Shown piece by piece: positions 24,003 to 43,527 of a stretch of 43,829 bases of DNA; positions within the stretch are counted from its first letter, which is position 1; the number at the start of each line of letters is the position of its first letter. Position numbers and translations under genes: made by a program. Below the pieces are notes generated by a model. The model ran no database searches. It had not been told where the DNA came from and saw only the letters and a program-made list of their open reading frames with translations. This stretch comes from Candidatus Magasanikbacteria bacterium CG1_02_41_34. Its GTDB lineage: Bacteria; Patescibacteriota; Patescibacteriia; Magasanikbacterales; UBA922. The stretch lies in contig MNVD01000020.1 of NCBI GenBank assembly GCA_001871445.1, positions 1 through 43,829 of the forward strand, in the 5' to 3' direction.

Positions 24003-24125
24003 ATAGAAAGCTTAGGATGCTTAGAAAGCTTGGAAGGCTTAGAAAGCAACTATTTCAAAATAATATGTGGATTGATATAAACAGCATTCTAGGCTTTCCA
24101 AGCCTTCTCGGCCTTCTGAGCCTTA
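24003..24125. repeat. inverted 9-mer arrays flanking the hpf-murB gap
   Basis: On the plus strand GCTTAGGAT, GCTTAGAAA, GCTTGGAAG and GCTTAGAAA stand in tandem from about 24010. The inverse AGGCTTTCC, AAGCCTTCT, CGGCCTTCT and GAGCCTTAA units lie at about 24090-24126. About 45 AT-rich bases separate the arms. The right arm just enters the murB 3' end. Confidence 0.65.
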
Positions 24126-25124
24126 AAGAATGGACACTTCCTCCTCCAGCTCAATCCCTAACTTAGTATACACTTCTTGCTTCACTTCATCAATCAATGA
24201 TAGGACATCATCTGCCGTAGCGCCGCCAGTATTGAGCATAAAATTTCCATGTTTGTCACTTATCTCTACCTTGCCTCTTTTTTTCCCTTTCAGCCCTGCC
24301 TGCTCAATCAGCCACCCCGCAGAAATTTTCCCTACTTCCAAAAAATTCTTCACTTTCTCATCATCTTTATCGAAGTGTTCAAGCAATGCAGTTCTATTCT
24401 TCTGAGCAAGTTGCTGTTGTCTGTTGTCTGTTGGCTGTTGGCTAATATCTACATTCTTAAATATACATCCACTCGACGCAAACCCCTTCGGCTGTGTACT
24501 ATTGCGATACTGCAGATGTTCGAGTGCTTTTTTCATGAGGTGCGCATCTGGCTCTGCCTTTTTCAATTGCAGATACGCTCGTAGTATCACGCCACCGTTG
24601 TTTTTGAATGCACTATCACGATACCCAAATTCGCATTCTTCATTTGTCACGGTGATGACTTCCCCATCTTTATATACGTCTACTTTCAATATATCTTTTT
24701 TCATGTCACCACCCATGGCACCGGCATTTCCCCTCACAGCGCCACCAATAGTCCCGGGTACACCAACACCCCACTCAAAGCCGGTAAGCCCCGCAGACAT
24801 CGATTTTTGGGCTACGACGACGGTTTGGCAGCCTGCTTCAGCCATAAACACATCACCATCTACCTCGGTATTTCTCGTTTTAATATCAATCACCACACCA
24901 ACATAGCCAGCATCACTCGCGAGCGTATTACTTCCGCCACCGTGAATGAAATATTCAATCCCTTTGCCATCGAGCAACTTCAAAAGTTCGACAAGCTTTT
25001 CAGTTTCCGTAACAGTCACAAAAAAAGACGCCGGTCCACCAATTTTGAATGTCGTATGTTTGGCAAGTGGTTCATTGAGTTTCACTTTGCCGTAGTCTTT
25101 GAATTTTTTATATAAATCTTGCAT
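24123..25124 (-). CDS. murB: MurB, UDP-N-acetylenolpyruvoylglucosamine reductase
   Basis: 333 aa FAD enzyme that makes UDP-MurNAc for peptidoglycan. Seen: KIGGPA at 27-32, HGGGSN at 61-66, GVPGTIGGAVRGNAGAMGG around 121-139, active-site Tyr168-Arg169 in GYRDSAF, and SSGCIFKN with Cys220 in place of the Ser of type I enzymes. The C-terminal substrate loop SDKHGNFMLN is present. ATG 25124 is preferred; an upstream ATG at 25160 lies in an inverted repeat. Residues about 228-241 (SQQPTDNRQQQLAQ) are encoded by a 7-mer tandem repeat and look like an insertion. Confidence 0.94.
   Translation of the reverse strand: MQDLYKKFKDYGKVKLNEPLAKHTTFKIGGPASFFVTVTETEKLVELLKLLDGKGIEYFIHGGGSNTLASDAGYVGVVIDIKTRNTEVDGDVFMAEAGCQTVVVAQKSMSAGLTGFEWGVGVPGTIGGAVRGNAGAMGGDMKKDILKVDVYKDGEVITVTNEECEFGYRDSAFKNNGGVILRAYLQLKKAEPDAHLMKKALEHLQYRNSTQPKGFASSGCIFKNVDISQQPTDNRQQQLAQKNRTALLEHFDKDDEKVKNFLEVGKISAGWLIEQAGLKGKKRGKVEISDKHGNFMLNTGGATADDVLSLIDEVKQEVYTKLGIELEEEVSIL
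24415..24442. repeat. 7-mer tandem repeat inside murB
   Basis: TGTTGTC, TGTTGTC, TGTTGGC, TGTTGGC: four consecutive heptamers on the plus strand, read in the minus-strand gene as a Gln/Asn-rich insertion. Confidence 0.8.
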
Positions 25125-25132
25125 AGATATAT

Positions 25133-25225
25133 ATGGAACACAGATTTCCAGGATTACCATGATTCACCATGATTTTTATTGACAAGATCCTGGATTATCC
25201 TGGTAATCCAGGTAATCTGCGTTCT
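25133..25225. repeat. inverted array upstream of murB
   Basis: The arm around 25136-25168 (AGATTTCCAGGATTACCATG type, with repeated CCATGATT) is the imperfect inverse of 25188-25222 (ATCCTGG, TATCCTGG, AATCCAGG, AATCTGCG). The units are about nine bases. The element lies between metG and murB; the far arm runs up to the metG stop codon. Confidence 0.65.
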
Positions 25226-33768: not shown

Positions 33769-33774
33769 AAATTT

Positions 33775-33823
33775 GTTAATTGTTAATTGTTAATTGTTAA
33801 TTGTTAGTTGTTAGTTGTTAATT
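33775..33823. repeat. 7-mer tandem repeat before umuC
   Basis: Seven perfect heptamers in a row: GTTAATT four times, GTTAGTT twice, GTTAATT once. They fill the gap between umuD and umuC up to three bases before the umuC ATG. The array replaces any Shine-Dalgarno. Copy-number change could alter umuC translation. Confidence 0.92.
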
Positions 33824-33826
33824 GCC

Positions 33827-42402: not shown

Positions 42403-43527
42403 CTACGCAATCACTCCACCACCGAGACACACTCCTTCTTTATATAACACTGCAAATTGCCCTGGAGTCACAGCCCGTTGTTTGATTTCAAAATCAAGTT
42501 GCAATTTTCCATTCTGCATTCTACATTCTGCATTCTGCAATGATTGTCTATGGCGTAGCCTTACTTGACAGTGTAGTGGAAATTCTGGGGCTTGTCCACT
42601 CACAAAGTGAACATTTGTTACACGTATTTCTTTCTTATAGAGCAAAGCACTTTCTTCATTTCCAACAACCAACTCATTATTCTCAAAACGTTTTTCCAAC
42701 ACATACATCGCAGAACGATTTGTATCTTGTGTCTTACTATTTGTGAGTTGCCCAACGTGTCGCTGCCCTATCGTATAAAAAGAAAGCCCCTCATGTTCAC
42801 CAACAACAGTACCATCTTCTGTAACAATATTTCCAGGCTTTTTACTAATTTTTTGCTGCAAAAAATCTTTCATCGGCATTTCACCGACAAAACAGATGCC
42901 CATACTCTCTGCTCGCTCTGCGGTAGGCAAACCAAACTTTCGAGCCAACTCACGAACTTCTGTTTTTGTATATTCGCCAAGCGGAAACATTGTTCTGGAT
43001 AATTGCTCTTGTGTGAGCTGGTGTAAAAAGTATGTCTGATCTTTGTCTTCATCCTTTGCAGCACGTAACACATAACACATATCACGTATCACTTCTTCCT
43101 GCGACGTGTTACGTGTTACGTGATTCGTGCTACGTGAAATACGTGCGTAATGTCCAGTCGCCATTGCATCAAACCCCATTTCCAAAATTTTCTTGAGCCA
43201 TGCATCAAATTTAATAAACTTGTTGCACATCACATCTGGATTTGGTGTTCGTCCAGCTTCGTATTCTGCAAACATATACCCCATCACCCACTCTTTATAT
43301 TCTTTTTCAAAATCAAGCGTCAAGAGTGGAATTCCCAGATGCGCTGCCACACGCATGGCATCCCGACGATCTTTTTTCCACTCACAAAGACCTGATATAT
43401 CTTTTGTATCAGACCATTGTTTCATATAGGCGCCAGTAACATCATATCCCTGATGAACAAGCAGCGCGGCAACAACAGAAGAATCAACACCGCCACTCAT
43501 AGCAACGAGGACTTTTCCTTTTTTCAT
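42403..43527 (-). CDS. mnmA: MnmA, tRNA-specific 2-thiouridylase
   Basis: 374 aa. It thiolates U34 of tRNAs for Lys, Glu and Gln. PP-loop SGGVDSS at 11-17, catalytic Cys101 in DVMCNKFIKF, second Cys212 in GICFVG, TGHYAR near 124-129, and the C-terminal beta barrel ending VCLGGGVI. Two segments look inserted: residues about 131-153, encoded by inverted 7-mer arrays, and residues about 330-344 (QNAECRMQNGK), encoded by CATTCTG repeats. Both keep the frame. Its substrate tRNA-Gln is also encoded in the window. Confidence 0.96.
   Translation of the reverse strand: MKKGKVLVAMSGGVDSSVVAALLVHQGYDVTGAYMKQWSDTKDISGLCEWKKDRRDAMRVAAHLGIPLLTLDFEKEYKEWVMGYMFAEYEAGRTPNPDVMCNKFIKFDAWLKKILEMGFDAMATGHYARISRSTNHVTRNTSQEEVIRDMCYVLRAAKDEDKDQTYFLHQLTQEQLSRTMFPLGEYTKTEVRELARKFGLPTAERAESMGICFVGEMPMKDFLQQKISKKPGNIVTEDGTVVGEHEGLSFYTIGQRHVGQLTNSKTQDTNRSAMYVLEKRFENNELVVGNEESALLYKKEIRVTNVHFVSGQAPEFPLHCQVRLRHRQSLQNAECRMQNGKLQLDFEIKQRAVTPGQFAVLYKEGVCLGGGVIA
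42510..42537. repeat. 7-mer tandem repeat inside mnmA (3' part)
   Basis: CATTCTG, CATTCTA, CATTCTG, CATTCTG in tandem on the plus strand, read in the minus-strand gene as an Asn/Gln/Cys-containing insertion in the beta-barrel domain. Confidence 0.85.
43062..43138. repeat. inverted 7-mer arrays inside mnmA
   Basis: Left arm CACGTAA, CACATAA, CACATAT, CACGTAT (43062-43089). Right arm ACGTGTT, ACGTGTT, ACGTGAT, TCGTGCT, ACGTGAA (43104-43138). The arms are inverse to each other with a 14-base centre. They encode the extra 23 or so residues after HYARI. Confidence 0.85.

Follow-up and report, generated by a model that had tools for sequence, protein, structure and literature searches.

Small Palindromes and Heptamer Repeats in Bacterial Genomes

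REP/BIME elements, which occur with RAYT, are palindromic, intergenic, and present in high copy number, and the STRR sequences of cyanobacteria are heptamer direct repeats. Palindromes that form part of protein-coding sequence are, to our knowledge, known mainly from Rickettsia and Wolbachia. The Rickettsia palindromic elements (RPEs) are small, mostly intergenic palindromes of 105–146 bp with terminal inverted repeats (Ogata et al., 2000; reviewed in PMC2229807). They are also found in frame inside conserved protein genes, with 19 reading frames reported, and the gmk product is made and active (PMC2229807). BrickBuilt, a MITE of Porphyromonas gingivalis, carries 23-nt repeats inside terminal inverted repeats that resemble those of an insertion sequence (PMC4596501). 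The heptamer TAACTGA forms direct repeats in Beggiatoaceae and cyanobacteria, and among long simple repeats, heptanucleotides are reported to be the most frequent in many bacteria, for which slippage has been proposed (PMC4679880). No prior description of such elements in Magasanikbacteria was found in the open-licence literature.

The mnmA Gene and Its Period-7 Arrays

The window, the whole stretch of DNA that was analyzed, is 43,829 nt in length and constitutes contig C28 of the 1.04-Mb genome of Candidatus Magasanikbacteria bacterium CG1_02_41_34 (G000). It contains an intact mnmA gene (42403..43527, minus strand) for a tRNA 2-thiouridine(34) synthase of 374 amino acids, which matches NCBIfam NF001138 over its full length (419 bits) and also gives full-length matches to solved MnmA structures. 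Its AlphaFold model (m034e8545da51) has a pLDDT of 91.5 and fits 2hma/2det at TM scores of 0.87–0.88. The claim that the protein keeps its motifs despite the presence of repeat DNA was borne out: SGGVDSS, the conserved C101 and C212, GHY, and KDQTYF are all intact, and on this basis the enzyme of G000 probably retains activity.

TRF identified a period-7 array of CATTCTG (4.3 copies, 91% matches) at 42510–42539 and two further period-7 arrays at 43062–43085 (3.4 copies) and 43104–43136 (4.7 copies). The first of these, referred to here as site B, encodes residues 330–345, and the other two belong to site A, which encodes residues 131–156. The window contains five period-7 segments scoring at least 14, compared with none in Markov shuffles. 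An earlier note on this DNA had described exact 7-mer arrays at residues of about 131–153 and 330–344; arrays with this period are present at close positions, but their copies are imperfect. Because the period is seven, arrays inside genes cannot result from the multiple-of-three slippage that is expected in coding DNA. The arrays at both sites are real and have a period of 7, yet they differ in kind.

A Palindromic Element at Site A

Site A is a palindromic heptad element of 75 nt, located in frame at 43062..43136 on the minus strand and recognized from its repeats, fold, and alignment. The earlier note took it for a plain 7-mer array and overlooked that its heptamer arrays run in opposite orientation (inverted repeats I2/I3), so that two opposed arms of period 7 form one palindrome. 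Arm 1, which is 5′ on the coding strand (43104..43136, minus strand), reads CACGTAGCACGAATCACGTAACACGTAACACGT, encodes approximately SRSTNHVTRNT, and has ACGAATCACGTAACACGTAACAC in common with an arm on contig C32 of the same genome. Arm 2, which is 3′ on the coding strand (43062..43094, minus strand), reads AAGTGATACGTGATATGTGTTATGTGTTACGTG, encodes approximately VIRDMCYVLR, and shares AGCACGTAACACATAACACATA with an arm at C5:14389. The core that separates them (CGCAGGAAG on the coding strand; 43095..43103, minus strand) is equal in length to that of an intergenic element of G000 at C5:14340–14414, and the two elements align without gaps over 75 nt, core included, with a score of 75 against a shuffle maximum of 27. 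The insert includes SRSTNHVTRNTSQEEVIRDMCYVLR. Among the complete copies that were translated, only those in mnmA and at C5:14340 have a stop-free frame. The RNA of the transcribed strand folds with a free energy of −40.3 kcal/mol (z = −4.35). No Rfam family matched above its gathering score, the best matches reaching 30 and 22 bits against cut-offs of 55 and 100, and assignment to a known RNA family was rejected.

In the protein model, site A is an extended β-hairpin with strands at residues 129–137 and 147–155 and a tip with a block pLDDT of 62–72. The arms encode most of both strands, with arm 2 providing the Y-x-L motif found in the second. The position of the hairpin, its confidence profile, and its variability in relatives suggest that it is surface-exposed. 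The spacing between GHY and KDQ is 34 residues in G000 MnmA, compared with 23–25 in congeners and 17–24 in most array-free relatives, so that the net gain relative to congeners is 9–11 codons. Since the loop without these 75 nt would be shorter than that of any relative, the element probably replaced part of the native hairpin rather than adding cleanly to it, as judged from these sequence lengths. At this site, the congeners carry other arrays or AT-rich sequence; no clean empty mnmA allele was found among them, and insertion at site A was not seen directly.

A Heptamer Array Without Insertion at Site B

Site B (42510..42539, minus strand; TRF and codon alignment) is a separate CATTCTG/GCAGAAT heptamer array that probably arose in place and is not an insertion. 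It has the same length in the congeners G001, G002, and G003, and the codons align without an indel: TTG CAG AAT GCA GAA TGT AGA ATG CAG AAT pairs with ATG CAA AAT GTT GAG GTA CAC ATT GAA AAT in G001, and an alignment with the same region of G003 is likewise free of indels. Native codons such as ATG CAG AAT GCA (CA)A, which occur in relatives and already contain roughly two units, may have seeded the array. CATTCTG has 2–8 matches per genome in all four genomes of the genus, and in G023 its matches are confined to that genome’s own mnmA (C3:42989–43016), at the same site.

The idea of two in-frame insertions, each at a short loop of MnmA relatives, is thus supported for site A, with its longer coding sequence and its low-confidence hairpin tip of predicted surface location, but not for site B, which gains no length, starts within the conserved RHRQ-x-LQ stretch, and is part of a β-strand with a block pLDDT of ~97. 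Conservation of the array-encoded residues in array-free relatives, proposed as the observation that would speak against insertion, was found in part at site B and was not found at site A.

A Dispersed Family of Elements

The element census of G000 was carried out by pattern searches and inspection of the stretches surrounding the matches. Allowing two or fewer mismatches, ACGTGNTACGTGNTACGTG has 57 matches in G000, while the reversed control has none; allowing at most one mismatch, a search of 36 genomes gave 26 matches in G000, 15 in its sister species G003, and 24 in G018, which belongs to another genus, with 0–4 elsewhere. Approximately 20 sites in G000 carry arms, and there are more in G003 and G018. 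Most arms are intergenic and lie immediately after stop codons or before start codons. The layout TTCACG...GTAACA – core – TGTTAC...CGTGAA is almost always kept in order, and the aligned arms have a common outer edge, (T)TCACG, and a common inner edge, GTAACA. Adjacent arm pairs in G000 are in the order −,+ in eight of nine cases (CACGTAA strand on the left, TTACGTG strand on the right); G003 and G018 together have 12 pairs in this order, three that are ++, and one that is +−, which spans two elements. Some arms occur singly or directly repeated, which counts against an origin as dispersed units, as does the fact that tracts of period 7 could also lengthen by slippage. Element length is 75 nt in mnmA and ~60–450 nt elsewhere, with variable cores. 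This near-fixed arm polarity and edge structure indicate an element with inverted ends rather than random tandem arrays.

Empty and filled sites among the four congeners make movement of the element testable. Three gene junctions of G000, the PrgI junction (C36:80340–80498), C36:81676–81756, and C5:17232–17376, contain elements in both G000 and its sister G003, while the corresponding spacers of G001 are short (~10–40 nt), as is that of G002 at the PrgI junction. G000 and G003 have similar arms around different cores at two of the filled junctions. At the remaining one, their cores are almost identical, and the right arm of G003 exceeds that of G000 by exactly one heptamer. These filled and short sites, the differing cores, and the one-heptamer change indicate that elements come and go as units, that cores are swapped, and that arms shift by heptamers; the copies thus appear to have moved as units. 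The flanks of the filled sites are too diverged between congeners for a target-site duplication to be read.

In-frame copies in G000 comprise the whole element in mnmA and one arm in a GT4 glycosyltransferase gene, and the rest of the ~20 sites are intergenic. The peptide SRxTxHVxRNT recurs in the glycosyltransferase, as SRNTKHVPRNT, compared with SRSTNHVTRNT in MnmA. At this locus (L095, G000:C1:900–2300), the single ACGTG-element arm lies in frame near residue 220 of a 408-aa open reading frame, between the two domains of the glycosyltransferase. A single arm of ATCACGT units also lies within a 498-aa open reading frame of G018 (L173, 920–952).

Recurrent Arrays in MnmA of Relatives

A set of 41 distinct mnmA genes from the same family and order contains 22 period-7 segments scoring at least 11 and five of period 8, with 0–2 for each of the periods 4–6 and 9–13. 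With two exceptions, the arrays that were mapped lie at G000 residues 130–156, 259–272, or 329–345, to within a few residues, a recurrence that the earlier note had also overlooked. Their units vary by genome and include ACGTGTT, GAAAGTC, TTTCCAA, GGGGAAT, ACCAATT, and GGAGACT, among others. Five mnmA genes (L071, L073, L084, L052, and L067) contain REP-like palindromes in frame in MnmA loops. Such palindromes occupy these segments in relatives in place of heptamer arrays, and the peptides that they encode are SFPRRRESS, CHCEERSDEAIS, GTDPEGICPRSTCPR, GLRLASSGLDEERLQGEAPS, and IRRSFSEGG.

The density of period-7 segments is ~12-fold higher in mnmA (0.456/kb) than in neighboring coding sequence (0.036/kb), a ratio that is if anything underestimated because the five background matches include low-complexity tracts or split mnmA. 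The Fisher p value of 3e-9 is nominal, because arrays from related genomes cannot all be counted as independent. The mnmA gene of G000 was selected for its arrays and those of the relatives were not; without G000, p is 2e-8. A heptamer richness general to mnmA was rejected, since eight mnmA genes outside Patescibacteria contained no arrays, as was an assembly artefact, given that similar arrays recur at orthologous sites and across many independent genomes. A tentative reading, which we hold with less than even confidence, is that Magasanikbacteria, and perhaps other Patescibacteria, host mobile palindromes with 7-bp-periodic arms, and that unrelated elements swap at three landing segments of MnmA within a genus. 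If so, mobile palindromes would continually rewrite surface loops in this conserved tRNA enzyme.

The window holds other repeat arrays. In murB (24126–25160, minus strand), a CTGTTGT heptamer array lies in frame at 24414–24443 (residues 240–249), and the MurB_C domain around it has 135 residues compared with a 99-position profile; with an array inside this enlarged domain, a second conserved enzyme of G000 carries repeat DNA. An intergenic TTGTTAA array of 7.4 copies occupies 33773–33824. Opposed period-9 arrays at 24004–24047 and 24083–24124 form a hairpin with the architecture of site A and another period.

Origin of the Site A Element

Site A is probably a copy of a dispersed palindromic element in a permissive hairpin of MnmA, with site B a separate array that arose in place. 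The source would be a non-coding, MITE-like palindrome with terminal inverted arms of 7-bp units, resident mostly between stop and start codons. One copy may have lodged in the β-hairpin between GHY and KDQ, in a frame avoiding the TAA and TAG of its units, and would have displaced part of the native hairpin, which would leave the net gain at only 9–11 codons. Tolerance of the element would follow from the distance of this surface hairpin from the catalytic motifs. Its arms may later have drifted through base substitutions and through heptamers gained or lost, and its effect is probably neutral, as that of a selfish or neutral palindrome.

Local slippage with template switching, by which heptamer-like native codons would expand wherever loops tolerate it, with a genome-wide heptamer bias alone making them look like the intergenic copies, is an unlikely origin for the site A element. 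Possible seeds do exist: GCACGTA at the left and GTGCT at the right of site A, and ATGCAGAATGCA at site B. The border GCACGTA is native sequence common to G000 and G001, and GTGCTGCAAAG is common to G000 and G002. Sister species differ in heptamer copy number, the array without length gain at site B lies on seed-like codons, and heptanucleotides are reportedly the most common type of long simple repeat in many bacteria (PMC4679880). However, an ungapped 75-nt match that extends through the core, an almost fixed arm polarity, and the presence and absence of whole intergenic elements between congeners speak against slippage, and a one-unit change within the gene would shift the frame. Selection for a hairpin in the mRNA or for the extra peptide, through regulation or alteration of MnmA, is very improbable. 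The strong RNA hairpin and the recurrence of arrays at the same MnmA segments are consistent with it, but unit sequence, peptide, and structure vary between species and even inside the genus, and many relatives have a plain loop of 17–21 residues.

Single-stranded mobilization of the palindromes by a Y1 tyrosine transposase of the REP-associated type is a refinement of the dispersed-element origin rather than an exclusive alternative to it, and is itself improbable. RAYT-like Y1 genes (PF01797) are found in G000, G002, G003, G004, and G018, and each of the three arm-richest genomes has one, but none of the 18 Y1 loci inspected is flanked by arms, Y1 genes are also found in the arm-free genomes G017 and G037–G039, and the ends of the abundant IS200-like element are unrelated to the arms. 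Neither this element nor the 18 loci thus provided a transposase linked to the arms, and RAYT or IS200 mobilization was rejected as a candidate.

The IS200-like Y1 element is itself present in at least 10 near-identical copies and breaks the G000 assembly at contig ends (L114–L132). All 10 of its 5′ junctions that were read directly follow the T-run of a hairpin resembling an intrinsic terminator (TTTTTATTC), which suggests terminators as its target. In G018, a RAYT-like gene is preceded at a distance of ~1 kb by a 16-copy TATCATC-like heptamer array (L138, 369–482).

Comparison with Known Systems

The family of site A resembles REP/BIME elements in being palindromic, intergenic, and high in copy number, and differs from them in its period-7 arms and in the lack of an arm-flanked RAYT at the 18 Y1 loci. 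It shares with TAACTGA repeats its 7-bp tandem units, its many intergenic copies, which are often near-upstream of start codons, and the stop codons encoded in one orientation. The TAACTGA repeats, in contrast, are almost all direct, consist of one fixed heptamer, and are mostly intergenic, whereas the arms of the site A family are paired and inverted, and some lie in frame within genes. Within the class of heptamer simple repeats, defined by tandem 7-bp units in direct orientation only, the paired −,+ arms depart from the second property, and site B alone fits.

As in MITEs, the elements have terminal inverted repeats but lack a transposase gene, and they are present or absent at orthologous sites. 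The likeness to BrickBuilt extends to a non-autonomous, intergenic element with inverted ends, tandem repeats of variable copy number, and a long stem-loop, which is missing at some sites of relatives. The difference is that in the site A family the heptamers themselves are the inverted arms, and no parent insertion sequence was found, the ends of the IS200-like element being different.

On the best reading, which is by analogy, the site A element would work like the RPEs, as a protein-coding palindrome in a permissive loop. RPEs and their Wolbachia counterparts are likewise palindromes with terminal inverted repeats that have both intergenic copies and in-frame copies in conserved genes. They differ in their length of 105–146 bp, compared with 75 nt in mnmA and ~60–450 nt with variable cores elsewhere in Magasanikbacteria, and the strict 7-bp arm period and the different phylum set the present elements apart. 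A Rickettsia-like mode would thereby occur in a streamlined Patescibacteria genome of ~1 Mb, with an unusual heptad-periodic arm, and recurrence at the same MnmA segments across many genera offers a natural experiment in how repeat DNA becomes protein.
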